Part shown: positions 1-30,305 of the stretch, piece by piece
Numbering within the stretch: position 1 is the stretch's first letter
Layout: each line of letters starts with the position of its first letter
Source: Neocallimastix lanati (nom. inval.)
Taxonomy: Eukaryota; Neocallimastigomycota; Neocallimastigomycetes; Neocallimastigales; Neocallimastigaceae
Direction: 5' to 3'
Assembly (NCBI GenBank): GCA_016946835.1
Contig: JACVTC010000418.1
Location: 1-30,305, forward strand
DNA length: 30,305 bases
Position numbers and translations under genes: made by a program
Notes under the pieces: model-generated
Databases searched by the model: none
What the model was told of the DNA's origin: nothing
Seen by the model: the letters and a program-made list of their open reading frames with translations, nothing else

Positions 1-1183
1 TTGACAATGTCCTACTTAAACAACAAGTTGGGTGTTCTAATTTGTCTTCCTCCTTTTGCAAAAGAGTACTTCCGATACCTTTATTCTTTTCTATTATTAT
101 TGCATTACACATAGGCGTCTTTAAAGAAGTATGGTTATTATATATTTCAGTTATTCTTTTAATTCCTTTTTTTGTTTTTTGATATAAGCAATCATCATCT
201 GGATCAATGTAGAGTCTGTACTTCTTTTGTATACCTCTTCCTAATATAATATTAAAGAATGGATTTGTATAATCTATTATATAAAATTTTTCATTCACAG
301 TTAAGTTATTATTTATAATTAATTTTAAATTTATATAAGAATTAGTATGGAGTATTGTACCATCGGCAATTGTAATAGTTTCAGAAAGGTCACAATTATT
401 AATGATTACATTTTCTAGTTCTTCAAGTGAATTTTTAGTTATGATGTTAACATTTGCACCTGTGTCGAAAAGTATTTTGACTGATTTGTTTCCTATTTTT
501 CCACATAATATGGGAATATTTAAATTTTGAATAGTATAAAGTATTTTCTCAACTCGTGGTTTACAACCTTGTTCTAGATCTTTTCTTATAGATGGACTAG
601 CTGATAATAATTGTGTTAGGCTTATTTTAGGATATAAATTATTGGCTTCTTCTAGAATATTGAATTTATTTTCAGGTTTTAACATTTGTATTTCGGTCAT
701 GTTTCGCTTACTTTTTGTTTTAACTTTTTCTGGTATAGTATTTGAATTATTATCTTGATAATTATTTTCATTAGGAGTATTGGGTTGGGGTTTGTCAAAA
801 TTAGTTGCACGAGCACTTTCACTATTATTATTAGATTCTTCATGCGTAATATTATTATTAGATAAATCCATGTCTTCTATATCATTTGTAATTTCTCTTC
901 TTCTTTTATCTCTAATGGCTTTCTTCTGTTGTTTAACAGCTTTTATATTTGGTTGATTTAGAATGGAAGGTTTTACTATAGATTTATTACTTGGTGATAT
1001 TTTATTTTTATCCAATGCATTCCTACTTAGCGATTTTCTCTTTTGGGCTGCATTAATCATATAATTATTGTTTCCTTCATATTCTATAGTATTTTCTTGA
1101 TCATAGTTGTTTGTTGCAATTTTATTTATCTCGGGAGATTGCGTACTCCCGATAACTAATTTAAATGGTTTAATTCTGGACAT
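1..1183 (-). CDS. R1 pol fragment: protease joined to partial RNase H, RT absent
   Basis: The frame is open from a stop at 1187-1189 to the window edge. Counting from the ATG at 1183, about 394 codons are present. Residues 1-200 are a basic, Asn-rich N-terminal region with the pre-protease motif also found in R2 and R4 (a run of form QLL..SP.IR..L.QG). The aspartic protease active site D-T-G is at residues 240-242, in the context ILFDTGANVNII, with the second protease motif ILGRG about 70 residues later. Only 129 residues after the DTG comes GIGSTLLQKEED, EHP and SRTLS, which matches RNase H of R2 and R4; the same distance in R2 is 503 residues. The whole RT domain and the first catalytic RNase H aspartate (TDAS) are missing, without a frameshift. 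Expression is expected by -1 frameshifting from gag at 1159-1165; the ATG at 1183 is an alternative start. Confidence 0.8.
   Translation of the reverse strand, partial: MSRIKPFKLVIGSTQSPEINKIATNNYDQENTIEYEGNNNYMINAAQKRKSLSRNALDKNKISPSNKSIVKPSILNQPNIKAVKQQKKAIRDKRRREITNDIEDMDLSNNNITHEESNNNSESARATNFDKPQPNTPNENNYQDNNSNTIPEKVKTKSKRNMTEIQMLKPENKFNILEEANNLYPKISLTQLLSASPSIRKDLEQGCKPRVEKILYTIQNLNIPILCGKIGNKSVKILFDTGANVNIITKNSLEELENVIINNCDLSETITIADGTILHTNSYINLKLIINNNLTVNEKFYIIDYTNPFFNIILGRGIQKKYRLYIDPDDDCLYQKTKKGIKRITEIYNNHTSLKTPMCNAIIIEKNKGIGSTLLQKEEDKLEHPTCCLSRTLS
1116..1165 (-). promoter_or_regulatory. R1 gag-pol -1 ribosomal frameshift signal (slip site plus pseudoknot)
   Basis: In gag phase the minus strand reads T TTA AAT directly before the TAG stop, the canonical X XXY YYZ heptamer (1159-1165). 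After 7 nt comes stem 1, CGGGAG with CTCCCG (1146-1151 with 1132-1137), enclosing the 8-nt loop TACGCAAT. The loop bases GCAAT can pair with ATTGC at 1116-1120 across an A-rich 11-nt loop, giving an H-type pseudoknot. The -1 frame is the open pol frame. The G/C content of stem 1 stands out in this AT-rich DNA. Confidence 0.88.
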
Positions 1184-2084
1184 TCTTCAACAATGTGACC
1201 AATACGCTGACAATTTATGCATAGGTTGATTTTTAAATCGGATAATTTTTTTGTTATATCATCTAGTTCTTTATCAGTGAATTGAGAACCTTTTAAAGTT
1301 GCTCTTCTCTGTTCGACTCCTTTGTTGAATTCTACAGGGTTGTAAAAATTTCTATTTGTAGTAAAATTGTTGTTATAGTTATTATTTCTAAATTTATTAT
1401 TATAACTGGAATTTTCATTAGTCCTAGTATTAGAGATAAAAGGAATTTTATTGTAATAATTAGTGTTAAAAGATCTAAAATTAGTATTTTTATTATTGTT
1501 ATTATTAGTGTTATTTAGATTCTTCTTTACATTTGAGAATTGAGTTTTATATTTTGGTTTATTATCTTCAAGAAGTTTAAGCATTTTTTCCTTTTTTGAA
1601 GTTATTTCCATTGCATCACTTAATTTAGTAGGTTCTGATTCTAATAAATACTCATACATTTTAGACCAGTTTCTAAATGCATTTATGTAGTATGGAGTAC
1701 TAATATAATCCTTTCCATCTAATTGTAATTGATTTAAGAGTTGTAGGAATTTTGTATCGAAGTCTGAAACTTTTTCACCTTTCTTAATGGTTAATGTTGA
1801 TATTTCCAAAAATTTTACATTCTTTGGAGTACAAGGTTTAAATCTTTTCTTTAAGTTTTCTAAGATTATTTCATAAGAGTCAGCTTGTGCTTTATTTAAA
1901 GAATATATAACAATAGTTCTTGCTTTGTCTGTAGTTACGGCAATTAAATATTCATTCTTTTCTTCGTTTTCAATTTTATATTTTCGACACCAATTTTCAA
2001 AGGCGAATTTCCATTCTTCATATTGGACTTTTTCTTCACCTAATATTGGTAATCTACTAAAAGTAATAGCTTTGGTAGTTGTTT

Positions 2085-2088
<4 letters not shown>
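1156..2088 (-). CDS. gag: R1 Gag (capsid-nucleocapsid) protein
   Basis: 310 codons, ATG at 2088, TAG at 1156. The N-terminal two thirds resemble retrotransposon capsid: a region with WKFAFENW near residue 30, then LKKRFKP near residue 90 and a helix-rich stretch to about residue 170. Residues 180-260 are Asn-rich low complexity. A CCHC zinc knuckle, C-x2-C-x4-H-x4-C, occupies residues 290-303 (CINCQRIGHIVEEC) and should bind genomic RNA in the particle. The C-terminal codons contain the frameshift heptamer, so a fraction of ribosomes continues into pol. The ATG is directly preceded by 29 A residues in the transcript. No disabling change is seen in gag. It is recognised by knuckle, position and gene order; sequence similarity to R2 Gag is weak by eye. 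Confidence 0.85.

Positions 2089-2117
<29 letters not shown>
2089..2117 (-). other. 29-nt poly(A) tract immediately 5' of the R1 gag ATG
   Basis: On the plus strand positions 2089-2117 are all T, so the transcript would carry 29 consecutive A residues ending at the A of the start codon. Such tracts occur elsewhere in the window, but none of the other three gag start codons has one. It could affect initiation or simply reflect homopolymer expansion. Confidence 0.7.
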
Positions 2118-2118
<1 letters not shown>

Positions 2119-7010: not shown

Positions 7011-10000
7011 TCAAGCTTCTCTGTAAGCGGAGTTAAACTTTACTAAATTTTTAAAGTGAACATTCCTATCGAGTTGCTTTCCAGTCTTCTGATCGATTAG
7101 GGTTGCCGTGTTGAATTGAATTTTTAAAATTTTAAATGGTCCATTGTAATATGGTTCTAGCTTAGTGCGGCTAAAGTTTCTAACAAGAACAAGATCACCA
7201 GCCTTTAATTCTTTTCCTTTTTTCATACTTATTTGTTCTTCTCGTCTTGTTGCCCAATACTTGTTAGCATTCTTCACATTTTCGCATGCTTCTCTAGTCC
7301 ATTGATAATGACGAACAAATTTTTCCATTAAAATTTCATCATACGATTTACCTGCATTTTCAATTGTTCTTATGGCTATATCATAAGGCTGTTGGTCTTC
7401 TCTTCCATATACTAATTCAAAACTAGAATGTCCGGTAGCTGTGTTTTTGGTAGTTCGAAGTGCCCATAAAGCAGAAGGTAAAACTTCATCCCAATCTTGA
7501 TTTTTCCTTCCTAATAAACGAAGTAATTTTCCAATTTCTTTATTTCGATTTTCAGTAAGGCCATTTGATTCAGGGTGGTAAGTAGCTACAAATTTAACAT
7601 ATACATCATAAAGATCAAGAAAGATTTTAGTCATATCAGAAGTGAATTGGACTCCATTATCAGTAGTAATAACTTGAGGGACACCATGTCTTGCAAAAAC
7701 GTTTATTAAAAATTTAATTATATCAGAGGAAGTTATGTTTTCAGTGGGTTCGGCTTCAACCCATTTGGTAAAGTAATCAACAGTTACTATAATATATTGA
7801 TTATTATTTCTTGTTTTTGGTAACGGTCCTATAATATCTAATCCTAAATGCACAAAGGGACCCTCCACTTTAGTTGGATGGTTTTCGGTTGGTTCTGGAT
7901 ATGGTTGAGGACGATTTAACTGGCATTTTTCACAATTACTAACAATTCTTTTGATATCTTTAATCATATGATTCCAATAAAAGTTTTTCTTAAGTCTTTG
8001 ATATGTTTTGTAATATCCTTCGTGGCCAATATTATGAGCTTCTAAAATTAATTTAAACCTTTCATTTTCGTCCGTTATTAATTTTCTATAATTTCCATTG
8101 TCGATAAAGTAATCTTCACCATCAATAACAGTAAACTTTTCATTAATAAATTCCTTTATAACTTTAGATAATAATTCTTCATTATTTCCATTAGTAATTT
8201 TTGTTAATAATATCTTTCTCTCTTCCTTACTTTTCATTCTTGAAAGAGCATCAGCTAACACATTCTTTTTGCCTGATTCATATTTTATATTAATTCCAAG
8301 CATACTAGCGGTTAGACACCATCTTGTTTGCCTTGCATTCAAAGGTTCTTTATTCTTAAATAAACCAACTAATGGTTTATGATCTGTGTAAATAGTTGTA
8401 GGTAGTGGATTTCCTTCAATATAAGATTTAAATTTAGTCATACAGTAAAACAAAGCGGTTCCTTCCAAATCGGTAATACCATAATTCTTTTCAGCTTTCT
8501 TTAAACTTCTACTTATAAAGTGTATTGGATGCTCCTTACCGGTTTCTTCTTCTTTTTGTAAAAGAACTCCACCAATTCCATTATACGAAGCATCAGTTCT
8601 AATGATAAAAGGTTTGTCAAATGACGGAAATTTTAGAATAGGCGCATTGATTAATTTTTCTTTTAGGAGTTCAAAGCTTTCTTGTTGTTCTTTATTCCAT
8701 TCATATTTAGTATTCTTTTTCAATAATTTACATAAAGGTGAGGTAATTTGAGCATATTTAGGGATAAAGTCACGATAATACCCTATTGCTCCTAGAAATG
8801 ATCTTAATTCATGAATTGATGAAGGGGCTTCCCACTTCTTAATAGCTGTTATTTTACTTTCCATGGGACTTAATCCTTTAGTAGTAAGTTTGTGACCTAA
8901 TACATCAACTTCAGTTTGAAGAAAATGGCACTTTTCAATATTAATTTTTAACTTGTTTTCTTTAAATACTTCTAATACTTGTTTAATATGAATTAAATGT
9001 TCTTCGATACTTTTTGAATAGATCAAAACATCATCAATAAATACATAAACAAATTCACCAATAAAAGGGAATAAAATTTTATTCATTTCTCTTTGGAAGG
9101 TTGAGGGAGCTCCAGTAAGTCCAAAAGGCATAACCTTAAATTGATAATTTCCAAACTTAGTAGTGAAAGTGGTTACTTCAACGCTTTCTTCATCCATTAA
9201 GATTTGGTGAAAACCAGAAAATAAATCAAGAGTTGTAAATATTTTAGCTCCTCCGAGACTATCAAAAATTTCATCTATATATGGAACTGAATAAGAATCT
9301 TTTTCTGTCATATCATTGACTTTTCGGTAGTCAATGCACAAGCGCCACTTTCCATTGTGTTTTAGAATAAGTACTACTGGAGATGACCATTCTGAACAGG
9401 ATGGTTCTATCAATCCTTTCTTAATAAGTTTTGTAAGTTCTTCTTTTAAGATATCTGATTTTAATTTAGTTAACCTATAACTTCTTAATTTTACTGGCTT
9501 TGAATTTGCTTTCAAACGGATCTTATGTGGTGAAAGTTTAGAAGGAGTTAGTTCTTCTGTTGAAGTGGCAACTATGTCAATCATTTCTTTGAGAATTTTA
9601 ATAATTTGTTCTTTATAATCTTTATTTAAGGTACTTAAAAATTCATCACTCTCAATAAATTCCATTGGAGTTAATTCCTTTATAATTTCCTTTTCATTAT
9701 TCGTTTCTTTAACTTTTCTAATAGTGCAAATTATACTTTCTTCATCATAATATTGATTATTTATTTTAGCTATTTCTTCGTATTCACTTTCTGACAAAAG
9801 TTTACATAAACTGTTTAAGGTCGGATGAATAAATAAACAATGATCGATTTGAGTTTTAAAGTTTATTAACATATCATAAAATGAGTCTTCTTTCTCAATA
9901 ATTCTAAAGTCCGCATTAAATTCATAATTATTAATTTTTACTGGTAATTGAACAATAATTCCTTCCGAGTATTCTTCATCTTGTGTTGCTAGTTGGATTC

Positions 10001-11021
10001 TTCCACGACTTTTTCCAACTGTTTCATATTCACCAGGTAATTTATCAAAATACTGCTTAGTAACGATGCTTAGGTTACTACAAGAATCAATTAAAAGTTT
10101 TCCTAGTACTCCGTCAACACTTGCATCAACCATTGCTAAGTCTTCTTCGGCTACTTCATTACTTTTACTTATGTAGCTATGATCATAGTTATTCACTAAT
10201 AAAGTTCGTGCTATTACATTGTCTACAGTTCCAATTATTTTAGATTTTTCTAACTTTAAACCTTGAGTTAATTGTGAACGAATTTTCGGACATGCATTCA
10301 AGAGTTGACCTATCGTAATACTGGATTTAAGATTATTTAAATCATCCATAATATTGTAAGGTTCTTTATTATTCATCATTTTGATATTCCTTTTTACTAA
10401 CTGAGTATTTTCATTATTAGTTTCTTTAGTTTTTGTTGAAATTAATTTTTCCAAAGTATTAGTTTTATTTTGTTGATTATCTTTATTCATTTCTATATCT
10501 TCTATTTCATTATCGATTACAAGTATATCTTCAGATTCAACTTTTTTCTTTCCTTTTGATGAATAATTGTTGTTTTCTTCTTTACTTTCTCTTACTCTTG
10601 TTATATTTCTTAATTCCTTTTCTTTTTGTTTTTCTTTGTTAATATTTGGTTGAGTTAAAATTGAAGGAAGTATTTGATTTTTATAAACTTTATTTGGTTT
10701 ATTATGTAGCTCATTTTCTTTCTTCTTTCTTAAAGCAGGAGTTGCGAAAGGACGTGGATTATCTTTTAAACTTTTATGTACTTTCTTGGAATTATTTTCT
10801 TCCTTTTCGCTGTTATTATCATTCATTTTTCTTTTTATAGCATTTATAATGATATTATCCTCACTTTCAGTTGTGTCACTAAAATCAGATTCTTCAGATT
10901 CTTTATTAAAGGAATTATTATCAATTGGGGTATTCTTGGTAAAAGTATTATTTTGTAAATTATTTAATGAAGCTATTGTTTTGTCATTGGGAGTGCTTCT
11001 GCTCCCATTTAGAAGTTTAAA
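7011..11021 (-). CDS. pol: R2 Pol polyprotein: protease, RT, RNase H, integrase (via -1 frameshift)
   Basis: The frame is open from the slip site at 11015-11021 to the stop at 7011; the first ATG (10826) is internal. From that Met (1271 residues): basic, Asn-rich N-terminus to about 200; protease with D-S-C at 247-249 instead of D-T/S-G; RT with catalytic D534 (TTLDLFSG) and FIDD at 596-599; RNase H with D745 (RTDAS), E788 and D815; integrase HHCC zinc finger H931, H935, C965, C968, and catalytic D997, D1056, E1092 (DD35E). A GPF module lies at 1229-1231, and no chromodomain follows. It makes cDNA in the particle and integrates it; the position next to tRNA-Val implies targeting to Pol III genes. 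No internal stops or frameshifts. Closest relative here is R4 Pol, easily aligned end to end. Confidence 0.95.
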   Translation of the reverse strand, partial: FKLLNGSRSTPNDKTIASLNNLQNNTFTKNTPIDNNSFNKESEESDFSDTTESEDNIIINAIKRKMNDNNSEKEENNSKKVHKSLKDNPRPFATPALRKKKENELHNKPNKVYKNQILPSILTQPNINKEKQKEKELRNITRVRESKEENNNYSSKGKKKVESEDILVIDNEIEDIEMNKDNQQNKTNTLEKLISTKTKETNNENTQLVKRNIKMMNNKEPYNIMDDLNNLKSSITIGQLLNACPKIRSQLTQGLKLEKSKIIGTVDNVIARTLLVNNYDHSYISKSNEVAEEDLAMVDASVDGVLGKLLIDSCSNLSIVTKQYFDKLPGEYETVGKSRGRIQLATQDEEYSEGIIVQLPVKINNYEFNADFRIIEKEDSFYDMLINFKTQIDHCLFIHPTLNSLCKLLSESEYEEIAKINNQYYDEESIICTIRKVKETNNEKEIIKELTPMEFIESDEFLSTLNKDYKEQIIKILKEMIDIVATSTEELTPSKLSPHKIRLKANSKPVKLRSYRLTKLKSDILKEELTKLIKKGLIEPSCSEWSSPVVLILKHNGKWRLCIDYRKVNDMTEKDSYSVPYIDEIFDSLGGAKIFTTLDLFSGFHQILMDEESVEVTTFTTKFGNYQFKVMPFGLTGAPSTFQREMNKILFPFIGEFVYVFIDDVLIYSKSIEEHLIHIKQVLEVFKENKLKINIEKCHFLQTEVDVLGHKLTTKGLSPMESKITAIKKWEAPSSIHELRSFLGAIGYYRDFIPKYAQITSPLCKLLKKNTKYEWNKEQQESFELLKEKLINAPILKFPSFDKPFIIRTDASYNGIGGVLLQKEEETGKEHPIHFISRSLKKAEKNYGITDLEGTALFYCMTKFKSYIEGNPLPTTIYTDHKPLVGLFKNKEPLNARQTRWCLTASMLGINIKYESGKKNVLADALSRMKSKEERKILLTKITNGNNEELLSKVIKEFINEKFTVIDGEDYFIDNGNYRKLITDENERFKLILEAHNIGHEGYYKTYQRLKKNFYWNHMIKDIKRIVSNCEKCQLNRPQPYPEPTENHPTKVEGPFVHLGLDIIGPLPKTRNNNQYIIVTVDYFTKWVEAEPTENITSSDIIKFLINVFARHGVPQVITTDNGVQFTSDMTKIFLDLYDVYVKFVATYHPESNGLTENRNKEIGKLLRLLGRKNQDWDEVLPSALWALRTTKNTATGHSSFELVYGREDQQPYDIAIRTIENAGKSYDEILMEKFVRHYQWTREACENVKNANKYWATRREEQISMKKGKELKAGDLVLVRNFSRTKLEPYYNGPFKILKIQFNTATLIDQKTGKQLDRNVHFKNLVKFNSAYREA
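10969..11021 (-). promoter_or_regulatory. R2 gag-pol -1 ribosomal frameshift signal (slip site plus pseudoknot)
   Basis: In gag phase the minus strand reads T TTA AAC at 11015-11021, two codons before the TAA stop. After 7 nt stem 1 is TGGGAG with CTCCCA (11002-11007 with 10988-10993), loop CAGAAGCA. Loop bases GAAGC can pair with GCTTC at 10969-10973 across a 14-nt A-rich loop. The T-A closing pair replaces the C-G pair of R1 and R4. The -1 frame runs open into pol. Confidence 0.92.
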
Positions 11022-11920
11022 GACTTTTTGGAATATATTTCTTTTTTATTTTTTTCCATAATCTTATTTAATTGAGGGCAATAGTATGAGTAATGACCTT
11101 CTTCCTTACAGAAGAAGCAAGTTTTAACAGATAAATTTCTCATTTTCTGGGTTGATTCTTCTATAATATCTTGAGGTTTCAGTTTATTATTTGTTTGACT
11201 TGTTTGGAAAGTTTCGTTTCTTCTTTTAGGATAAAGTCTTGAAGTAGTACTGTTTTGATTATTTTGATTATGCTGGGAATTATTAACATTATAGGTATTA
11301 ATATTATTGTTCCTTACAGAAAGTCTATCTACTTTCTCGGCAATTTTGAAAGCTTTCTCCATACTTATATCATCTTTAAGGGATAATTTCTTCCAGGCTT
11401 CATAATTATTTTGAATAGAATCAATATAATCTAGTACACCGATGCGCTTTCTTCTCTTTTTATCAAGTTTAGTGTACAAAGTTCTATATCTTACATTAAA
11501 GTCCTTAATCTTTTCGTTTCTTTTAATTCGCATTGCACGAAGTTCTTTAAGAAGTAAATTTTGGTCTTCTTTAATACCGTAAAAATTTTCAAGACTTGAA
11601 ATAATTTTTCCAAGAGAAGGAAATTTAATATCATCATCAACATTTTCTTCTTCATCATGTTCTTCTTCTTCATCTGATGAATCATCACTTTCATCATCAC
11701 TATCTTCTCCCAAATCTTCAATAACGCGTTGTACTTCACCAGAGCTGGTAAGTAAACAAGCATTAAATATTGTTTCTGGATCTGTGATACCTTGTATCTT
11801 GATCCAAAGTTTCAATTCAGTAGCCCAGGACTTAATATCTAAATTGTCCTTGCTAAGTTTCACAATATCTCTTAATTCTTTTTTCAATTCTTTAAAGCTC
11901 AAAGTTGTTTCCTTGGACAT
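11009..11920 (-). CDS. gag: R2 Gag (capsid-nucleocapsid) protein
   Basis: 303 codons from the ATG at 11920. The frame is open for 22 more codons upstream, but without an ATG there, and similarity to R4 Gag begins at this Met. Residues 1-68 are capsid N-terminal helices (SWATELKLWI). Residues 69-97 are a run of Asp, Glu and Ser, strongly acidic. The capsid core continues with a conserved block around residues 100-200 shared with R4 (YGIKEDQNLL, LRAMRIKRNEK, FNVRYRTLY). The CCHC zinc knuckle CFFCKEEGHYSYYC is at residues 268-281. Gag forms the particle and binds genomic RNA. The last codons carry the slippery heptamer. The gene looks intact. Confidence 0.9.
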   Translation of the reverse strand: MSKETTLSFKELKKELRDIVKLSKDNLDIKSWATELKLWIKIQGITDPETIFNACLLTSSGEVQRVIEDLGEDSDDESDDSSDEEEEHDEEENVDDDIKFPSLGKIISSLENFYGIKEDQNLLLKELRAMRIKRNEKIKDFNVRYRTLYTKLDKKRRKRIGVLDYIDSIQNNYEAWKKLSLKDDISMEKAFKIAEKVDRLSVRNNNINTYNVNNSQHNQNNQNSTTSRLYPKRRNETFQTSQTNNKLKPQDIIEESTQKMRNLSVKTCFFCKEEGHYSYYCPQLNKIMEKNKKEIYSKKSLNF

Positions 11921-12095
11921 TTTGTTTAAATATTTCTTGTTGTATATTAATGAGGTGATTAAATAAGAATAAATTTGGAAATACAACTTTAAAAATATAA
12001 TTTAATAGGTAATTTAATATCGAATCAATTTTTAAAACAATATATTTTAGTAACTTTTTGAAAATAATAATTTTATTTGCTTTCTTTAGTAGATA

Positions 12096-12367
12096 TAAGC
12101 TCGAAATCCTTATCGACAACTTAGTAGAAATTATAAAGCACGAGGTTCTTTTCGACTACTTTATTAAGAATAATTTTTAAGTTCGAAATCTTTATCGACA
12201 ACTCAATAGAATAATTTTTAAGTTCGAAATCTTTATCGACAACTCAATGGAATAATTTTAAGTTCGAAATCTTTATCGACAACTTAATAGAATAATTTTA
12301 AGTTCGAAATCTTTATCGACAACTTAATAGAATATTTTTCAAGCTCGAAATCTTTATCGACCACTTG
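12096..12367 (-). repeat. Seven-unit array of bulged hairpins in the R2 leader
   Basis: Units start near 12096, 12135, 12178, 12219, 12259, 12299 and 12340, a period of 40-41 bp. A typical plus-strand unit is TAAGTTCGA, AATCTTTA, TCGACAACTTA. It folds into a 6-bp outer stem, a 3-bp CGA/TCG stem and a 2-nt bulge (GU in the RNA). The last unit changes the outer pair to CAAG/CTTG and the second to AAAG/CTTT, compensatory relative to TAAG/CTTA; two middle units have one A-C mismatch. The array ends about 180 nt upstream of the gag ATG. R4 has two similar hairpins in the equivalent place. A role in packaging, dimerisation or translation is possible but not shown. Confidence 0.8.
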
Positions 12368-13371
12368 AATTTTGTAATTTAGTATATTTGTAGTAATAAA
12401 TTTAGAAGCAAAGTTTTATTTATTATTTTCACCTTTCAAAAATTTTTCTTTTTAAACGATAAATATTGTATTGTTATAGCTAATAAAATTATTAATTAAT
12501 TATAATTATTAAATACAAAAAAAAAATAATCTTTATTGTCGTACAATCTGATAGTACACACTGTCTGACGTGCAGCTTACCTAATGGTGTCATGCCACGC
12601 GTGTGCCACGATTACTATATTCAATATAAAATATAGCAGTTCAGAGCCCACTAGCCCAATTACTATGTAGGATAAACTTAATCCGATAATCTATGTACGG
12701 AATAAAAAAAAATTTTAAAAGTATTCAATAATATTTTTATTAACTAATAAAAATTAACTAAAAACACAATATTTTCAAAGTAAATTAAGATTCTTTTACA
12801 GGAATTATTAAACAAATAAAGTATCAGTAATAAAAAAAAAAATAAAAAAAATTTAAATGGCGAAGTTAGCCAAAGTCTGATACTTTATATAATAAAGTGC
12901 CTTATAACTAGCACAAAGAAAAGTAAAAAAAATTATATAAAAAAAACAATCTTACGCCTTCGGTGACGTAAGCTCCTTATTCGCCAGTGCTTGGAAAGTA
13001 CCCGCACCTTCGTGTGTTGAAACGTTGAAGGTTGAACTATTATTACCGGGTCGGTAACCAAATACCTTCGTCTACTTTCCAATTAATCTCCAAATTAACT
13101 ACTATTCAATAACCTACTATGAATAGAGTTAATTTGTTGCTATCTGAGAATACACTGTGTATGAGCTCTATCCGCTCCTTGTTATAATTTTACAAAATTT
13201 GTTTTTTTAGAATCTTAATTTTACTTATTTAAAAAAAATTTTTTTTATATATATATATCAAACAAGCGCCATGGGTTAATCAAAGGATTAACGACTTACT
13301 TGTTTATCAATATAAAATAAAAAAAAAATTAAAAAAAAATCTATGTTATTTACTATTATTTCTATTTAATT
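12368..13371 (-). other. R2 5' untranslated leader, structured segments
   Basis: No gene is seen. GC-richer blocks alternate with A/T sequence. At 12555-12660 is the block shared with R1 (10-mer AGTTCAGAGC at 12638-12647). Perfect hairpins include CTTACG with CGTAAG (12951-12956, 12967-12972) and TTACC with GGTAA (13043-13047, 13053-13057). A 17-bp stem with a single bulged base pairs 13091-13108 with 13120-13136. A two-tier hairpin uses AAACAAG and CTTGTTT (13260-13266, 13299-13305) around GTTAATC and GATTAAC (13275-13281, 13286-13292), about 70 nt from the primer site. Confidence 0.65.
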
Positions 13372-13746: not shown

Positions 13747-14242
13747 TTATTTATTTAAAAATATCTAAAATATTACTAATAAGAATTTATTTAATTGGCT
13801 ATAATTTTTATTACAATCTGTTAAAATATTCAAATAAAAATAAAAATACTATTCTAATATAAAGGTTTTTAATAAAATAAAATATTTTTCAATATAAAAT
13901 AAAACATTTCGATATAAAATTTTATAATAAAAAGTTAAAATATAATATATAAATTTTTAATTATCAATATATAAAAATATTATTAATATAAATTTTCATT
14001 ATTAATATAAAAAAAATAAGATTTATTATTAATATTGCTAATATAAGTTTTAAATATATAAAAATATTACTATTAATATAAGATTTAATATAAAAATATA
14101 AAGTTTAATATAATTTTTGATTTAATTTTTGATCTTTGGATTTAAAAATTTATTAAAGTACAAAAATAATAATGTACACATAATGTATTAGAAATAAATC
14201 GTAGATTTAATTAAGAATGCATTATTTAGTACATTCTTATCA
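13395..14242 (-). repeat. R2 5' LTR
   Basis: 848 bp, TGTTAAGG to CTTATCA on the plus strand, the near-identical partner of 6146-6992. It contains the promoter for R2, read leftward, away from tRNA-Val copy A, whose coding part starts 15 bp beyond its right end. The T-run is 49 bases long here. Confidence 0.92.
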
Positions 14243-14246
14243 AGAA
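14243..14246. repeat. R2 right target site duplication (AGAA)
   Basis: AGAA follows the CA end of the right LTR and matches 6142-6145. In copy B of this host segment the flank reads TCAGAACCTC instead of TCAAGAACCTC, so the R2 and R4 insertion points differ by about one base relative to the tRNA. Confidence 0.65.
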
Positions 14247-14257
14247 CCTCAACGAAT

Positions 14258-14330
14258 ATCCAAATAGTGTAGTGGTTATCACGTTTGCTTTACACGCAAA
14301 AGGTCTCCGGTTCGAACCCGGGTTTGGGTA
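14258..14330 (+). tRNA. tRNA-Val (anticodon UAC), copy A
   Basis: Full 73-nt cloverleaf without CCA and without intron. The acceptor stem is ATCCAAA with TTTGGGT (one U-G pair), discriminator A at 14330. The D-arm region holds box A (TAGTGTAGTGG). Anticodon stem TTTGC/GCAAA with loop TTTACAC puts TAC at 14291-14293, reading GUA valine codons. T-stem TCCGG with CCGGG (one U-G pair) closes loop TTCGAAC, giving box B GGTTCGAAC. The closely packed R2 5' LTR lies 15 bp upstream, at the expected Pol III initiation region. Copy B at 29604 is identical. Confidence 0.97.
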
Positions 14331-14339
14331 TGATGTATA

Positions 14340-14344
14340 TTTTT
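14340..14344 (+). terminator. Pol III terminator of tRNA-Val copy A
   Basis: Five T residues begin 10 nt after the last tRNA base, the usual Pol III stop. The same run is at 29686-29690 after copy B. Confidence 0.75.
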
Positions 14345-14391
14345 ATTTGTATTTTAAGTATATATAATTTTTCTTTTATATATATCAATTA

Positions 14392-14408
14392 TGTTACGGT
14401 TCGTAACA
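14392..14408. other. Perfect 7-bp inverted repeat downstream of tRNA-Val copy A
   Basis: TGTTACG, GTT, CGTAACA forms a perfect inverted repeat with a 3-nt centre, about 60 bp after the tRNA, with several G/C bases in otherwise A/T sequence. It is kept in copy B at 29738-29754. It may be a protein-binding site; no function can be assigned. Confidence 0.5.
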
Positions 14409-14699
14409 ATTTTTGGATTATAATATTTTAACACTTCAAGAAATTAAATAAATAAATAAATATTTGTTTTATATAATTTTTATTAAAATTATTTCAAATT
14501 AAAAAATTAAAAAAAAAATGTTTTTTTTTTATTAATTACTATCCTCTTAAAAAGTTATTTTAGAATTACATGTATTTATATTTTTTTTTACATTTAAAAT
14601 TTGTTAAACCTATCTAAAATATTTTCTAAATATTTCTAACTAATTAATATTATTATTTTTTCCTAAAAATTTATTTTTGTAAAATTTCCTATTTATATA

Positions 14700-15434
14700 T
14701 GTTAAAAAGTAAACAGATTGAATTTAACGAGGAATCAGGTTGATATATCTATATAATATAACTATATAGATATAAGTAAATTACTAAAATAAAAGAGTTA
14801 TAAAGTTAAATTTGTTAATTTAACACTTAATTAAAACTAATAATTGGTTTGATATGATAAAAATTTTTATTTATTAATAAAAATATATAGTTATATTATA
14901 ATAGGTTAACTATAACCTTACAAAGAACAAAAAGATAAATTTGAATTTTCTTTTTATACTTTGTAGGTTTGAGAATATTGATAATAATAATATAAAGTTG
15001 ATAATAATAATATTTAGTATAAGAATATGTTTAATATAAATAAATTATATTTTTTAATCTAATATATTAGCTAATATATATAATATAATATTAAATTTAA
15101 ATATTTAATATAGTAATTAATAATTAATAATTAATTAAATCAATATAACATAAATTAATACATAAACATTAATTTATGAATCAAGGATGACATGACCAAA
15201 TGATTCATGTTAATAAATATTTTATTTATTAATAATATTTAAGTTTAATATGATATCATTAGAATCAGTAGGCCTAAGCTGGTCCTAAGATGATCAAATA
15301 ACTTATAATATTATAAAATAAATAAAATTTAAAGAATAATTAATGAATTATAAATTTTTATTAATTATTTTGTTTTTAATAATTTTAATTGAAATTAATT
15401 GAAATTGAAATTTAATTCAGTTGTAATTTCAACA
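14700..15434 (-). repeat. R3 3' LTR
   Basis: 735 bp, TG...CA, matching 20991-21725. It contains the presumed transcript start motif (ATAACCTTAC at 14912-14921 on the plus strand) and TATA box (14950-14958) in the corresponding places. Confidence 0.93.
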
Positions 15435-18900: not shown

Positions 18901-19886
18901 TCGCGATATTGAGGCGGAATATCTTCAATATTTGGATCTTCATTGTCATTTTTATTAATTTCTTTATTTGATAAGAAGGAATATATTAAAAAATTGTAAT
19001 TATAGTCATTGTTTAAATTAAAATTATTTTTTAAATATTTATTTTGTTTTTTGAAATAATATTTATATTTATTAATAAAATAATGATTTTTATTAAAAAA
19101 TTTTTTATAATTAAATTTATCACAAAATTTTGAAAATTTATTAAGGTTAAGGTTATTAAGTTTTTTATTAAAAAATTTTTTATTATAATTAAACTTCTGA
19201 TCAAATTTTTTGAAATTTTTTGAAAAATTTTTATAATTAAATTTTTTTATTGATTTATTAAAAAGTAAATAATTTTTTAAAATTTTATTTTTCATCGACT
19301 GTAGATATAAATTGTTTTTGCAATATTTATTAGGATTTTTGTTATTTTTATTTGAAAAATAATAATTTAAGTAAGAATATAATATATTCTTATCATAATT
19401 ATAGTGAATTTTGAATTTTCGCATGAACTGATTACCAAAAAGTAGATCAGTTGGTATGCAATTTGTTATTAGAAATTTTTCATTGTAATTTTTAAAATAA
19501 AATTTTTTATTCTTTTGTATTTTTATTTGAAATTTTAGCCAAACGTACTGATCTATCTTAGTAGTAGAACCAGATATACCTTTGACTGAAATTTTATTTT
19601 TTAAATTATAAATTTTTAAATTTAGTTTTTGAACTAAATTTTCTGTAATAAAATTACAAAATGATCCAGAATCTAGCATAGATTCAGATGTAATTTTTTG
19701 GTTATTTTTAATTTTTAATTTATTATTATTAATTGGTAGTCTTGTTGGAATGTAGCAATGGAATAAAAGAAAAGTTGAAGGTAGTTTTTGGGTTGTGATG
19801 TTATCAAATGAAGGAAAGTTATAATAAATTGTTTTTACATTTTTTGATGAATTGGACTCCGAGTGAAGTCCTTCATTTAGTTTTTT
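15984..19886 (-). CDS. pol: R3 Pol polyprotein: protease, RT, RNase H, integrase, chromodomain (via -1 frameshift)
   Basis: Open from the slip site at 19880-19886 to the stop at 15984; the first ATG (19679) lies inside the protease, so it is not a plausible start. From that Met (1231 residues): protease D-S-G at 3-5; Lys/Asn/Phe/Tyr-rich low-complexity spacer at about 100-245; RT with D381 (TKLDLRSAYN) and YLDD at 443-446; RNase H D592 (ECDAS), E634, D661; integrase finger H812, H819, C849, C852; catalytic D882, D942, E978 (DD35E); GPY at 1113-1115; chromodomain-like tail at about 1168-1220 (CYEYRVRY, SNWVPSYEVEN). The first cage aromatic is not evident, which suggests a group II chromodomain. 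The tail probably steers integration through chromatin. No internal stops; all catalytic residues present. Confidence 0.95.
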   Translation of the reverse strand, partial: KKLNEGLHSESNSSKNVKTIYYNFPSFDNITTQKLPSTFLLFHCYIPTRLPINNNKLKIKNNQKITSESMLDSGSFCNFITENLVQKLNLKIYNLKNKISVKGISGSTTKIDQYVWLKFQIKIQKNKKFYFKNYNEKFLITNCIPTDLLFGNQFMRKFKIHYNYDKNILYSYLNYYFSNKNNKNPNKYCKNNLYLQSMKNKILKNYLLFNKSIKKFNYKNFSKNFKKFDQKFNYNKKFFNKKLNNLNLNKFSKFCDKFNYKKFFNKNHYFINKYKYYFKKQNKYLKNNFNLNNDYNYNFLIYSFLSNKEINKNDNEDPNIEDIPPQYRDLFIVFSKAEADKLPPHCLTDCKIVLEKDASLHYGPIYPLTEEENKVLKEYIKENLKKGFIRPSESPAGYPVLFQKKKDGTLRLCVDYRKLNAVTIRNSYPIPLINEIIEKVKGAKYFTKLDLRSAYNLIRIKEGDEYKTAFRTKYGHYEYLVMPFGLKNAPATFQSFINSVLRPYLEKSVILYLDDILIYSKDLKEHHKQVREVLQALINNNLYAKLEKCEFDKKKVEFLGYVLSGQGVTTDPKKIESIKDWPQPNNLKDVQRFLGLCNYYRRFVKDFAKIAKPLHNLTRKNIKFNWNNKCEESFSELKKRLTSSPVLFHPDNNKPFIVECDASNFALGAVLSQKDDNNKLHPVAYFSRSLQGAEINYTITDKELLAIREAFLAWRHLLLGAKYKVTVYTDHRNLLYTLGGKIGNQRQHRWHMFFQEYNFELIYRQGSNNGKPDSLSRRPDYIKNNEETKTENILDIKNVKEVPCFIGVVSDLLEKIIEATKTDATADDIRLYFSPQNIKNDMSYKPFRKMNKFKIKDNIILYNNLIYIPEILRLEILTKYHEKPSAGHLGIKRTLELITRNFWWPKMQDDVTKFVNSCECCARNKINRHRKYGFLQPLETPDRPWKSIEVDFLCGLPDSKGYTVIMVVVDRFSKMIHLIPFKQIPDAKQTAKAFMNNVYKLHGLPYDMYTDRGPQFTSALWKEFMKLLNIKSKLATTDHHETVGQVERCNSFIEQYLRAYSRSYYHDDWINWIYLAEFAYNNSVNESTKETPFFINYGFHPSMDEYFLLPQVDTNSKFIKNVSTSFNHIKDVLLRSKELYKNYADKKRMPPPVIKEGDLVWIQAPPSLNIEDCSKLAPCKYGPYKVIDVLENNNYKIDLKKSPFPKHHPIFHISELEPYVPTPQKFLNRSSHNESINDIIEISGFRTNYKKNCYEYRVRYKYKSSSNWVPSYEVENNPRNQRIYQEYLKNNRKFTSLSYN
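19854..19886 (-). promoter_or_regulatory. R3 gag-pol -1 ribosomal frameshift signal (slip site plus hairpin)
   Basis: In gag phase the minus strand reads A AAA AAC at 19880-19886, directly before the TAA stop. After 8 nt comes a perfect hairpin GGACT with AGTCC (19867-19871 with 19854-19858) and an 8-nt loop. I found no convincing second stem. The -1 frame is the open pol frame. The module differs in sequence from R1, R2 and R4 but has the same layout. Confidence 0.82.
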
Positions 19887-22823: not shown

Positions 22824-25800
22824 CTAAATGGAGGCTGAATTATACTTTACTATATTCTTCAAATGGACATTTCTATTTAATTGGATTCCGGTATTTGGAT
22901 CAGCTAAAGTTAAGGTATTATATTGTTTCTTAATGACTTTTAAAGGACCTACGAAATATGGTTCAAGCTTTGTGCGGTTAAAATTTCGAACTAGTACTAA
23001 ATCGCCAACAGCTATTCTTTTTCCTTGATTTAGGCTATTCTTTTCTTCTCTCCTTGTTGCCCAGTATTTACTTGCGTTTTTACTATTCTCGGCAGCTTCT
23101 AAAACCCATCTGTAATGTGAAACAAATTTTTCTAGCAATACTTCATCCGAAGATTTATATAGGTCTTTTGTTGGTCTAGCAGCAATGTCGAATGGTTGCT
23201 GATCTTCTCTTCCGTATACTAGTTCAAAGCTAGAGTGGTTGGTAACTGAATTTTTAGTTGTTCTGAGGGCCCATAACGCAGAAGGTAATATCTCATCCCA
23301 ATCTTTATTCTTTTCTCCTAGCAATCGAAGTAATTTACCTATCTCTTTATTCCTATTTTCGGTTAAACCGTTTGATTCCGGATGATAGGTAGAAACGAAT
23401 TTTATGTAGACATCATATAAATCTAGAAAAACTTTAGTCATGTCAGAGGTAAATTGCACCCCATTATCAGTAGTGATGATTTGCGGAACACCATGTCGGG
23501 CGAACACATTTATGAGAAATTTAATCACATCTTGGGAAGTAATAGTTTCAGTAGCTTCCGCTTCAACCCACTTCGTAAAGTAGTCAACAACTACTAAGAT
23601 ATACTGTTTATTATTCTTAGTTTTCACAAGCGGACCTATAATGTCTAATCCTAAATGTACAAAAGGTCCTTCTACTTTAGTTGGAGTATCTTCTGTAGGA
23701 TCAGGGTAGGGTTGCGGTCTATTGAGTTGGCATTTTTCACACTTACCAATTATTCTTTTGACATCGATTATCATATTGTTCCAGTAATAGCTTTTCTTTA
23801 GCCTTTGGTAAGTTTTGTAATAGCCTTCATGACCAATGTCATGAGCTGCCAAGATCAGTTTAACTTTTTCGGCTGTATCAGTAACCAATTTCCTATAATT
23901 ATTTCCATCTACAAAATAGTCTTCACCGTCAATAGTGGTAAATTTTTCCGATATAAAGTCTTTAATTACTTTAGATAATAATGTTTCATCTTTTTCTTGT
24001 GTAACTTTCATGGCTAGCAATTTCTTATCCTTTTCACTCTTCATTCGAGACAATGCATCGGCTAAGACATTCTTTTTTCCAGGTTCGTAACGAATATCAA
24101 CACCTAAGGAACTTGCTGTTAAACACCATCTCGTTTGTCGAGCATTTTTCGGTTCCTTGTTCTTAAAAAGTCCAAGTAAAGGTCTATGATCAGTATAAAT
24201 TATGGTAGTGTGCGGATTTCCCATAATGTATGATTTTAACTTTTCTAAAGCGAAGTATAAAGCTAAACCTTCCAAGTCTGTTATTCCATAATTTTTCTCT
24301 GACTTCGATAAGGTACGACTTATATAATGAGCAGGATGTTCTTTACCAGTGATTTCATCCTTTTGAAGTAATACTCCTCCGAGTCCATCATAGGAGGCAT
24401 CTGTTCTGATAATAAAGGGTTTACTAAAATCGGGAAATTTAAGGATAGGTGCATTTATTAAACATTCTTTCAGCTTTTCAAAACATATTTGTTGTTCGTC
24501 ATTCCAGACATACTTTGTGTTCTTACGTAAAAGTTTACATAAGGGAGCCGTTATTTTAGAATAATTAAAAATGAATTTTTGGTAGTAACCGACTGTCCCT
24601 AAGAATGACCTTAGTTCGTGAATATTAGTGGGAGGATTCCACTTTTTAATAGCTTCTATTTTACTTTCCATTGGACTTAATCCTTTTGTAGATAGTTTAT
24701 GACCAAGTACTTCTACTTCTGTCCTAAAGAATTGGCATTTTTCTATATTGATTTTCAATTTGTGTTTACGAAAGATTTCAAGGACTTGTTGGATATGGAT
24801 AAGATGTTCTTCAACACTTTTAGAATATATCAGTATGTCATCGATAAAATTGTATACACATACACCTATTAAAGGAAAAAGAATTTGATTCATCTCACGT
24901 TGAAAGGTAGCTGGAGCGTTCGTGAGACCAAAAGGCATGACTTTGAATTGATAATTTCCGAATTTAGTAGTAAAGGTAGTGATCTCTACACTTTCATCAT
25001 TCATTAATATCTGATGGTAACCAGAGTAAAGATCCATGGTAGTAAAAATTTTTGCACCTTGTAGACTATCAAATATTTCATCGATATAAGGTAATGCATA
25101 AGAGTCTTTTTCAGTGGCTTCGTTAACTTTTCTGTAATCTACGCATAATCTCCATTTTCCATTTGGTTTTGGAACCAATACTACTGGAGAACTCCAAGTT
25201 GAATGAGAGGGTTCAATTAATCTCCTCTCAATTAGGTCAATCAGTAATTCTTTCAGAATATCAGATTTAAATTTTGTTAGCTTATAACTCTTCTGCTTAA
25301 CCGGTTTAGTTCCTTCTTTTAATTCAATTTTATGGGGAGTCAAATCTGATGGTGTTAATTCTTCTGAAGAAGTCGCAACAATTTCTATGTTATCCTCCAA
25401 TAATTTAAGAATTTTGTCTTGAAAGTCTTTATTCAGAGTATTTTTAAAAATATCATTATGTATATAATCTAAGGGAGGTAATCCTTCAATGGTTTTTAAC
25501 TTTGCTTTAATATTGACTTCTTCTTTATCGTCAATTTTTGTTACTGAACATAAAAGTTTTGGTTCGTCTTCAAAATCATTATTTAACTGTGCAATCTTTT
25601 CAATGAATCCTTCAGTTGAGAATCTACAAAGACTGTTTAATACAGGATGTATGAATAATCTATGAACAGCTTGTGTTTTAAGATTTATTAAAACATCATA
25701 GAATGGATCTTCTTTTTCTACAATTCGACAATTTACAGTCATAGTAAAATTGTTAATTCGAATAGGTACTCTAATTATGACACTCTCTGAGTACTCATCA

Positions 25801-26872
25801 TTGTTAGTAGCAAGACGGATGCGACCACAGCTTATACCAATTGGTTCAAAGTTTCTTGGAATTTTGTCTAAATATTTTCGAGTTATTATATTTAGATTAC
25901 TACAAGAGTCGATTAAGAGTTTACCTTTAATGCCTTCAACTGTGCAGTCAATATCATCCTCTTGGATTTCCTTTCTATTACTTTTGTAAGAGTGGTCTAC
26001 GTTATTGACCATGACTGTCATAGCAGTAATATTTTCTACTGCTCCCGCTATTTTATCTTTCTTAACTAACTTTAGCCCCTGAGAAACTTGAGATCTAATT
26101 TGGGGTGAAGAATTTATTAATTGTCCGAATGTGATGTTACATCTTATATTATTTAAATCTTTTAAGACATCATATTCTTCTTGATCCTCTAACATTTGAA
26201 TTTTCCGTTTAACTTTAGGGGTGGAGATTTTCTTTTCCGTATTTCCTTCTTCCATTAACTTTTCAATTGTTTCTATTTCTTTGAGGTTTTCTAAGTCCTC
26301 TAGGTCGTCACCTATATTTATTATTGGGGTTGTTTCTTCTTTATTTGTAGATTTTACATTAGATTTGATTTTTGGTTCAATGCTTATACTTCCTCTCTCT
26401 TTATCACGAGCTTCTTTAGCCTTAGCCTTTTCTTTATTATTTCTTGGTTGGGCTATAAAGGAAGTATGTAGTTGCTTTTCAGCTGGCTTTGGGGATTTAT
26501 TTCCAATTCTCTTTCTCTCTTCTTCCGAAGTGCGGGGGTTGCTATTGGTCTAGGATTATTTTTCAAACTTTTGTATTCACGATTTTCATAGTTTTCTATA
26601 GTATCATCTACTTTTTCTATTTTTCTTTTTGCAGCCGCCACAGTAAAATTGGTTGCATTTAGATTTTCTTCCTCATCTGGGTCATAATTTATTTCATAAA
26701 GACTATTAATATTACAACTTCTATTATTGTTTTCTGAGTTCGTTTCTTCCTCACTACCAATTTTATTTACTGTCAGAACATCTGGGAAGGAAATCTCTTT
26801 ATTAGGGTGAAATTGAATTGAAGCTAATTTTTTTGTTCCGGGAGTGCTTCTACTCCCGACTATTGATTTAAA
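22824..26872 (-). pseudogene. pol: R4 pol with a frameshift in its N-terminal part
   Basis: Two frames together cover the equivalent of R2 Pol. The N-terminal frame runs from the slip site (26866-26872) to a stop at 26453 and carries a segment like R2 residues 19-40 (NNPRPIATPALRKK). The main frame holds everything else to the stop at 22824, and its similarity to R2 begins inside the GA-rich stretch near 26512-26530, where the frame is lost. From its first ATG (26255, 1143 residues): protease D-S-C at 116-118; RT FIDD at 470-473; RNase H D619 (RTDAS); integrase H805, H809, C839, C842; D871, D930, E966 (DD35E); GPL instead of GPF at 1103-1105. The enzyme domains look intact, but frameshifted ribosomes should terminate before reaching them. 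Confidence 0.85.
26820..26872 (-). promoter_or_regulatory. R4 gag-pol -1 ribosomal frameshift signal (slip site plus pseudoknot)
   Basis: In gag phase the minus strand reads T TTA AAT at 26866-26872, one codon before the TAG stop. After 7 nt stem 1 is CGGGAG with CTCCCG (26853-26858 with 26839-26844), loop TAGAAGCA. Loop bases GAAGC can pair with GCTTC at 26820-26824 across a 14-nt A-rich loop. The signal is preserved although gag and pol carry frameshifts. Confidence 0.9.
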
Positions 26873-27773
26873 GGCATATTGTGGTTTTGATTGAAGTACT
26901 TTCTTTTGTTTTCTTGAATAATGGACTGAAGTTTAGGACAATGATTACTGTAATGACCTTTTTCTTCACAATAGAAACAAGTTTTAATAGTTAAATGTTT
27001 CATTTTACTAGTAAGATCTTCCCTTTCAACATCTACATTAGTTCTCTTTAGTTCTTCGGACTCTAATTTCTTATTATAAGGTATAGAGGGAGAATTTCGT
27101 TTGAAGGTATTATTACTATTATAATTGTTTCGATGGTAATTCTCTTGATTTGTAAGTCGGGTTTGGTTAATCATTAATCTATCTACCTTTTCAGCGGCTT
27201 CATAAGCTTGTTTTAAAGAAATATCATCTTGTAAGGAGACTCTTTTCCATGCTTCTTCATTGTTTCTTAAAGAATCCACGTAATCTAGAACACTTACTTG
27301 CTTCTTATGCTTCTTGTCTAGTTTCAAGTATAAAGATCTAAAGCGTGTGTTAAAATCTTTCACTTTTTCATTACGTTTTATTCTTAGGGAACGTATTTCT
27401 CTTACTAATAAATTCTGATCTTCCTTAATGCCATAAAACGTCTCTAATGCATCAATAATCTCTGAGAATGTAGGATAAGAAGTATCATTTTCGTCGTTAC
27501 TTTCATTGTCACTTTCATCATTATCTTCATCTTCATCATCACTATCATAGTTATCCAAATTATTCTTCAATTCTTGAATTACCTTCCTCGGTTCACCCGT
27601 AGATGTTAAAACGCATGCAATAAATATTTTCTTTGGATTAGTAACTTCTTCAAGCTCAATCCATAATTGTATTTCTGAGGCCCAAGTCTTAATATCTAAG
27701 TTATCCTTGGTTAATTTTTCAATATCTTTGAGTCCTTTTTCAAAGATTTGAAATCTATTTCCTGGTTAGTCAT
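26860..27773 (-). pseudogene. gag: R4 gag with a frameshift near its start
   Basis: Similarity to R2 Gag begins at an ATG at 27773 but the frame changes at a run of five A residues (27736-27740 on the plus strand, T). Downstream the gag frame is open to the TAG at 26860, with no ATG until far inside. It retains the acidic Asp/Glu/Ser/Asn run, the core block YGIKEDQNLL and LRIKRNEK, and a CCHC knuckle CFYCEEKGHYSNHC ending about 25 codons before the stop. The change looks like loss of one base in a homopolymer. A sequencing error there would give the same picture. Confidence 0.85.
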
Positions 27774-29318: not shown

Positions 29319-29589
29319 TATATATTAATAATCAACCAATATTTTTATTTTAATTATTTAGAATTTTCTAAAAATTTATAGAATTTATTTAAGGGATTCT
29401 TAATATAGAAATCTTTTAGAAACTTTTAGAAAAATAATAATATTTACTATCAATATTTTAGAATTTCCATGAAAGAAGAATATAGGAAAGTTTAGTTTAA
29501 TAAGAAATCAATAATAATTATAATTGGAATATTTGTAATATATTATGAAAATTATTACAATTTAATAATTATTGTTTTGTTCTTTTTCA
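28564..29589 (-). repeat. R4 5' LTR
   Basis: 1026 bp, TGTTCGG to CTTTTTCA, partner of 21781-22800. Its right end is 14 bp from tRNA-Val copy B, and the element is transcribed away from the tRNA. Confidence 0.92.
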
Positions 29590-29603
29590 GAACCTCAACG
29601 AAT

Positions 29604-29676
29604 ATCCAAATAGTGTAGTGGTTATCACGTTTGCTTTACACGCAAAAGGTCTCCGGTTCGAACCCGGGTTTGGGTA
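29604..29676 (+). tRNA. tRNA-Val (anticodon UAC), copy B
   Basis: Identical over 73 nt to the gene at 14258-14330, with the same anticodon loop TTTACAC, box B GGTTCGAAC and discriminator A at 29676. A Pol III terminator of five T residues is at 29686-29690. The R4 5' LTR ends 14 bp upstream, so native upstream sequence is displaced by 7.8 kb of element. Confidence 0.97.
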
Positions 29677-29685
29677 TGATGTATA

Positions 29686-29690
29686 TTTTT
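29686..29690 (+). terminator. Pol III terminator of tRNA-Val copy B
   Basis: Five T residues begin 10 nt after the last tRNA base, as in copy A. Confidence 0.75.
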
Positions 29691-29737
29691 ATTTGTATTT
29701 TAAGTATATATAATTTTTCTTTTATATATATCAATTA

Positions 29738-29754
29738 TGTTACGGTTCGTAACA
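29738..29754. other. Perfect 7-bp inverted repeat downstream of tRNA-Val copy B
   Basis: TGTTACG, GTT, CGTAACA, the same as at 14392-14408 in copy A. It falls within the duplicated segment, so its presence here does not by itself show selection. Confidence 0.45.
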
Positions 29755-30305
29755 ATTTTTGGATTATAATATTTTAACACTTCAAGAAATTAAATAAATA
29801 AATAAATATTTGTTTTATATAATTTTTATTAAAATTATTTCAAATTAAAAAATTAAAAAAAAAATGTTTTTTTTTTATTAATTACTATCCTCTTAAAAAG
29901 TTATTTTAGAATTACATGTATTTATATTTTTTTTTACATTTAAAATTTGTTAAACCTATCTAAAATATTTTCTAAATATTTCTAACTAATTAAATTATTT
30001 TTTCCTAAAAATTTATTTTTGTAAAATTTCCTATTTATATATGTTTTTTTTTTTTTTAAAATTTAATTTAATATTTTTTTATACTATTTGATTATTTTCC
30101 TAATTTTTATTTTATAATTTTTATACAATTTAATTGTTAATATAAATTGAATTAATATATTTTAACTAAATATACCTTAAAAATAATAAACAATATTTAT
30201 TTTAAATACATATTATTTAGAAATATTAGTAATTTAAAATTATTTAACTATTTAGTTTATTATTTACATAAATAAAAATACTAACTTTTAATTAAAAATA
30301 TACTT

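Follow-up and report, generated by a model that had tools for sequence, protein, structure and literature searches.

The principle of the H-type pseudoknot that stimulates -1 ribosomal frameshifting is already well known, retroviral examples being the gag-pro signals of MMTV and SRV-1. The putative signal described here, carried by retrotransposons of the anaerobic gut fungus Neocallimastix lanati, resembles these in its X_XXY_YYZ slip site, its spacer of 7-8 nt, its stem 1 of 5-6 bp, its short loop 1, its junction of 0-1 nt and its A-rich loop 3; it differs from them in that the fungal stem 1 is almost frozen over ~1100 copies, stem 2 has been exchanged and one class is seemingly devoid of stem 2. 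Frameshift pseudoknots have usually been studied one virus at a time, whereas here ~1100 copies are found in one genome. With slip site, spacer, stem 1 and loop length fixed, and stem 2 swapped, lengthened or missing, these copies form a natural mutational series suited to asking what stem 2, loop 3 and the stem-1 sequence each contribute. This large natural variant set is unusually rich and shows that elements of an early-diverging fungal phylum carry a predicted -1 pseudoknot signal.

Saccharomyces Ty3 uses +1 frameshifting, whereas the element R2 studied here is predicted to use -1, even though its Pol finds its top match among solved structures in Ty3 Gag-Pol (7q5b) and insertions of its family occur, as for Ty3, just upstream of tRNA genes. 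On the ground that Ty3 itself shifts by +1, a first, sequence-only reading of this locus had called a -1 pseudoknot in such a lineage notable. This argument does not hold as stated, -1 frameshifting being usual in Ty3/gypsy elements, fungal ones included, according to two sources (PMC10085805, PMC5009743). In PMC5009743, 28 of 51 animal Ty3/gypsy elements have pol in the -1 frame, frameshift pseudoknots are described in PEG10 and Ma3 (PNMA3), two domesticated mammalian Ty3/gypsy genes, and the frameshift mechanism of Ty3 is termed distinct; in PMC10085805, Tf1/sushi elements outside fission yeast are predominantly -1. The present elements thus share with PEG10 and PNMA3 a -1 shift and a pseudoknot stimulator in a Ty3/gypsy-derived context (PMC5009743), with the difference that they are multi-copy fungal elements and that both the gag and the pol frames of R2 are open. 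With the Tf1/sushi chromoviruses they share the production of Gag-Pol by -1 in fungal Ty3/gypsy elements (PMC10085805); the element R3, by its SH3_Tf2-1 match, looks like a member of that group, in contrast to R2, whose Pol is without such a match and which has UUUAAAY and a pseudoknot. Among the titles listed by a literature search (at most 20 per listing) that covered a minority of subscription journals, none dealt with a comparable signal in anaerobic fungi.

The retrotransposons of the window

The window, i.e., the whole stretch of DNA analyzed (positions 1-30305), contains four Ty3/gypsy-type elements (R1, R2, R3 and R4), each on the minus strand; genome-wide patterns were counted over 199,045,447 bases in 762 contigs. 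A domain scan of R2 and R3 gave the pol order RT - RNase H - integrase, as in Ty3/gypsy elements (Metaviridae). In R2, the gag ORF (11009..12001) has a CCHC-like motif near its C-terminal end, identified by eye, and is followed in the -1 frame by a pol ORF (7011..11045) encoding RT, RNase H and integrase. From the ORF listing, the gag ORF of R1 spans 1156..2118 and that of R4 26860..27765; the R1 pol ORF, likewise in the -1 frame (2..1186), is cut off by the window start. In R4, pol begins in the -1 frame (26453..26932), but this frame closes after 139 codons and the long pol ORF (22824-26549) lies in a different one. This second change of frame marks R4 as a damaged copy; the damage affects its pol region (22824-26932) and leaves the frameshift signal intact. 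The two LTRs are 99.88% identical in R2 (853 bp), 99.7% in R3 (739 bp) and 97.6% in R4 (1032 bp), those of R1 falling outside the range.

R3, whose pol carries a Tf2-1-like SH3 domain, belongs to a separate, chromovirus-like group; SH3_Tf2-1 was sought in R2 and R3 (R1 being cut off). Its gag matches Retrotrans_gag, plus Ty3_capsid just under the cut-off of the latter. The gag products of R1 and R2 gave no Pfam match at E<=0.001, and PF19259 is borne by some homologues of R2 Gag. Just upstream of R2 gag, tandem repeats of ~41 bp occupy 12096-12370.

A predicted -1 frameshift signal in R1, R2 and R4

On the minus strand of R2, the slippery heptamer T_TTA_AAC stands in the gag frame (11015..11021), with the gag stop TAA two codons on. 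After a spacer of 7 nt come the 5' strand of stem 1, TGGGAG (11002..11007), an 8-nt loop (CAGAAGCA) that contains the 5' strand of stem 2, GAAGC (10995..10999), then the 3' strand of stem 1, CTCCCA (10988..10993), and, 14 nt past stem 1, the 3' strand of stem 2, GCTTC (10969..10973). The same layout is found in R4, with the heptamer T_TTA_AAT (26866..26872) and a pseudoknot made of CGGGAG/CTCCCG and GAAGC/GCTTC (26820..26858), also on the minus strand, as is the signal of R1, which combines T_TTA_AAT (1159..1165) with CGGGAG/CTCCCG, GCAAT/ATTGC and an 11-nt loop 3 (1116..1151). In all three elements, the heptamer T_TTA_AAY is in phase with gag, which ends within the spacer after one or two more codons, and pol is open in the -1 frame; the 7 nt to the 6-bp stem 1 correspond to 8 nt to its 5-bp core, GGGAG/CUCCC. 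When R1, R2 and R4 were re-read, the letters and coordinates first reported for them proved correct, and the claim that slip phase, gag stop and open -1 pol frame agree was upheld, with the reservation that in R4 pol is open for 139 codons only.

A scan of both strands of the window for a slip heptamer followed by a 6-bp stem with at least 4 G/C returned the R1, R2 and R4 sites, the reverse strand of the R4 hairpin and one extra site (4593/4641). In Rfam, the R2 signal (window positions 10900-11060) was without match at E <= 1, and those of R1 and R4 were without match at the gathering threshold.

It is very probable, judging from the sequence, that the signal of the R1/R2/R4 type directs -1 programmed ribosomal frameshifting from gag into pol in Ty3/gypsy elements of this anaerobic gut fungus, with stem 1 locked by stem 2 in an H-type pseudoknot. 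Phase, stop, -1 pol frame, spacing, both stems and the replacement of stem 2 across families are observed directly. From these we infer folding in the cell, slippage and the efficiency of slippage. According to the proposed mechanism, the ribosome would read gag as far as T_TTA_AAY, where stem 1 (GGGAG/CUCCC), locked by stem 2 as an H-type pseudoknot, would stall it while the slip site occupies the P and A sites. Some of the passing ribosomes would then shift, both tRNAs re-pairing with UUU AAA one base upstream; these ribosomes would escape the gag stop, which lies one or two codons further, and would produce Gag-Pol, the predicted junction reading ...HLNLVIGST in R1 and ...KSLN-LLNGSRSTP... 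in R2.

Exchange of stem 2 among families

Altogether 96 copies were read (3 in the window, 91 elsewhere in the genome and 2 on MAG contigs), 76 from one set and 20 mostly picked for odd loops or spacers, so that they form a non-random sample. From them, 34 representatives were drawn, some of which are close relatives; near-duplicates were omitted, as were seven apparently decayed variants (L115, L124, L132, L133, L140, L141 and L144).

Stem 2 occurs in several types, namely A (GAAGC/GCUUC, 5-7 bp), B (GCAAU/AUUGC, 5-7 bp), E1 (UGUACU/AGUACA) and E2 (GAACGUU/AACGUUC), to which the weak types E3 and D, of 4 bp each, must be added. A stem 2 of at least 5 bp is present in 58 of the 64 examined copies of the first four types (A 32/37, B 22/23, E1 3/3, E2 1/1), against 2/29 in class C, described below, 0/1 in D and 0/2 in E3. 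Among the 34 representatives, a run of at least 5 bp is found in 11/11 of class A, 6/6 of B, 3/4 of E, 0/1 of D and 1/12 of C. Loop 1 measures 1-3 nt, the junction 0-1 nt and loop 3 8-14 nt, sizes that are usual in H-type knots.

The sequence-only reading had proposed from R1, R2 and R4 that stem 2 is rebuilt with other bases; this is borne out by at least four unrelated versions, each of which matches its own downstream half. Indeed, when loops were combined with downstream strands, pairing was obtained in 162 of 162 combinations of a type with itself and in 26 of 238 with another of the four types (A, B, E1, E2), combinations within one type not being independent. No single family proves stem 2, as the synonymous null gives P values of 0.0014-0.10 per representative with a run of at least 5 bp (A, B, E1, E2); it is the exchange of unrelated stem-2 sequences between families that makes it convincing.

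These data bear on another explanation, namely that the stem-1 hairpin alone would stimulate frameshifting everywhere and that stem-2 complementarity would be a side effect of Pol codon conservation. The 3' half of stem 2 does lie within IAS/IAT, a Pol motif shared by many sequences of classes A and B, the synonymous null does reach 0.1 in some families, and in class C slip site, stem 1 and geometry persist with no stem 2. However, a side effect of this kind would hardly account for four unrelated sequences that fit their own partners and mostly fail with foreign ones, nor for the extension of stem 2 to 6-7 bp in 5 of the 11 class A representatives. Codon usage in class B also stands against it. 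In this class, which like class C was picked by Pol residues alone for third-position counts, the loop codon whose last base lies in stem 2 encodes M (4), K (4), T (3) or V (1), and its third base is G in all 12 distinct sequences, whereas AAG, ACG and GTG make up 23%, 5% and 7% of their respective codons in these pol genes; in the pattern listing, this G is replaced by T at one genome place. Stimulation by the hairpin alone is hence quite improbable, and a pseudoknot in these four types remains the preferred reading.

In a tree built from the divergent start of Pol, with 5 of 20 inner branches well supported, class B forms one fully supported clade, and classes A and C are unresolved as clades. 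The branches of the tree are long, the Pol regions compared being deeply diverged, so that the signal outlives protein similarity at the start of Pol.

The AAGG-loop class

Class C, with AAGG loops (AAGGNNNA or ACGGNNNA), accounts for 211 of the 1102 genome copies. It retains slip site, stem 1 and geometry and has no convincing stem 2; the 2 of 29 copies with at least 5 bp are about the chance level, synonymous draws giving 0-0.28 per class C sequence. It was set apart from the H-type pseudoknots on this count. The pseudoknot is therefore not universal, classes C, D and E3 having no good stem 2, and the earlier proposal of a lineage-wide -1 pseudoknot stands for R1, R2 and R4 and loop types A, B, E1 and E2, and fails for the AAGG-loop class. 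Family members lacking stem complementarity had been named in advance as evidence against the pseudoknot; the AAGG class supplies them for stem 2, with stem 1 kept. Loci L001 and L072 are examples of this class, in which 15 of 17 distinct sequences are without a stem 2 of at least 5 bp.

Two pairs of letters do not vary in class C. Among the 17 distinct sequences, the loop codon is AGG in 16 and CGG in 1, with GG invariant, and the codon past the stem is ACC in 16 and TCC in 1, with CC invariant. The invariant letters include third codon positions, and AGG represents 15% of Arg and ACC 17% of Thr codons. This invariance looks like RNA-level selection and may perhaps reflect a two-pair contact next to the A-rich loop 3; GG/CC by itself is predicted to be unstable (+0.8 kcal/mol). 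Partners for class C up to 260 nt downstream were not found at any constant place. An upstream partner for the loops, UCCUU/UCCGU at -53 to -71, was considered and rejected: it is present in 9 of 16 rows, mostly within the Gag motif YSF, and missing elsewhere.

A bolder reading can be formulated, which we offer tentatively and hold to be rather doubtful as a whole. One lineage would have kept stem 1 and the 8/8 geometry nearly letter for letter over deep divergence and exchanged stem 2 at least three times. In the AAGG class, it would have dropped stem 2 for an invariant loop GG and a CC past the stem, beside an A-rich loop 3. The outcome would be a minimal two-pair, triplex-supported knot of an undescribed kind, in which stimulation would come from the stem-1 sequence and the loop-3 adenines and not from stem 2.

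Geometry, stem 1 and codon choice

The hairpin GGGAG-N8-CTCCC occurs at 1165 genome places, against 2 for the reversed control; as the pattern is its own reverse complement, each place was counted once. TTTAAAY lies exactly 8 nt upstream of 1102 of these hairpins (95%; control 0). When the spacer was freed to 4-14 and the loop to 3-18, only 1108 matches were obtained, of which 1102 (99.5%) keep the 8/8 geometry. The stricter pattern TTTAAAYN7YGGGAGN8CTCCCR has 673 exact genome matches and none in the reversed control. The ~1100 matches are related copies and not independent events. In the copies read, the gag stop is the second or third codon after TTA in 95/96 and in all 34 representatives, and the 5-bp core of stem 1 is perfect in 92/96.

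Over the 34 representatives, 94.9% of stem-1 cells are paired and four of the six pairs are invariant. Covariation in stem 1 is thus thin, as these four pairs never vary. The swap from C-G to U-A put forward by the sequence-only reading is right in its letters; it concerns the outermost pair only, which is UA in 12 representatives, UG in 4, GC in 3, CG in 2, AU in 2 and unpaired in 11 (10 of 33 distinct rows), so that the swap sits at an optional pair. One inner pair also varies among the representatives: it is G-U in one of them, and in one family (L134, GAGAG/CTCTC), for which 14 like copies and one broken copy are listed and one copy was read, it shows a compensatory change from G-C to A-U. 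Codon choice is a stronger support for stem 1 than the outer-pair swap, on the evidence of recoding: with Pol residues fixed, the 5-bp core survives in 0.035-0.28% of synonymous draws (24 sequences), and GGG and CCC account for 5% and 14% of their codons in pol.

These figures also weigh on two further explanations. Pol could be reached by splicing, internal initiation or transcriptional slippage, the site being decorative. Such routes need no heptamer, gag stop and structure at a fixed spacing, and transcriptional slippage usually takes place on long homopolymers, which TTTAAAY is not; we therefore regard them as very unlikely. Protein-level conservation of the Pol N-terminus, with an RNA devoid of function, is scarcely credible: the Pol motif G..x[ST]P does recur in most sequences read and the copies do derive from few families, but synonymous draws so rarely retain the stem, TTTAAA is accompanied by a nearby gag stop at a fixed distance in 34/34 representatives (in which the heptamer is present by selection, as they were found via TTTAAAY patterns), and the 1102 of 1165 hairpins cited above were found independently of the heptamer.

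Occurrence beyond this genome

Reading of DNA for the frameshift signal covered one genome and two MAG contigs (L067 and L069), and protein homologues extend the picture. The Gag homologues bearing an organism name come from Orpinomyces (5), Neocallimastix lanati (2) and Anaeromyces robustus (1), which points to an anaerobic gut fungus as host. Of 64 Gag homologues, 47 have LN or LK as their last residues, with no more than one residue after it, as expected from a slip site TTA-AAY placed immediately ahead of the stop; all 47 belong to the 51 that have a zinc-knuckle-like motif near the end. Such an end was found in none of the 8 organism-named entries, several of which look truncated. These protein ends suggest that the signal may be spread over other species.

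In the IMG/VR viral collection, 53 pattern matches were obtained, none of which combined a stem 2 with two long, correctly phased frames; the nearest one, L050, gave no retroelement-like reading by eye, and R2 Pol had no relative in the viral collection. The genome collection gave 10 matches; long gag and pol frames, each in the phase expected, are present in just two of them, L067 and L069, both belonging to class C. The contigs are binned as an Erysipelotrichaceae and a Methanosphaera MAG; they are probably rumen-fungus contamination of prokaryote genomes. L069 is nearly identical to L112, a copy from the present genome.

R3 and the tRNA neighborhood

R3 carries a different signal on the minus strand, with the heptamer A_AAA_AAC (19880..19886) immediately followed by the gag stop TAA and, 8 nt past the slip site, a plain 7-bp hairpin, GGACUUC ACUC GGAGUCC (19854..19871), which gains more pairs beyond a bulge in the predicted fold; inspection by eye revealed no stem 2. 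As R3 also has a -1 site before its gag stop, all four elements of the window read as -1 frameshifters.

In R2 as in R4, the LTR ends on its outer side ~13-14 nt upstream of a tRNA-Val(TAC) gene (14242-14331 and 29589-29677). Twelve other ends of the R2 family were fetched, and the LTR end was seen in 11 of them (all except L157). A tRNA gene starts 13-15 nt past the LTR end in 3 of these 11 (L163, L164 and L165). Words resembling an A-box and a B-box occur at 21-23 and ~64-66 nt in 7 of the 11, these three included, the other 4 having no box pair; the word patterns were partly derived from the same sequences, and the background is 2 of 462 window tiles. Ty3 is known to target Pol III genes (PMC5911963), and by analogy the placement of these ends suggests that the R2 family may insert by a Ty3-like targeting of Pol III genes. 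Of note, a 470-bp stretch with the tRNA-Val gene is duplicated beside R2 and R4 (14234-14703 and 29580-30045), at 98.5% identity.
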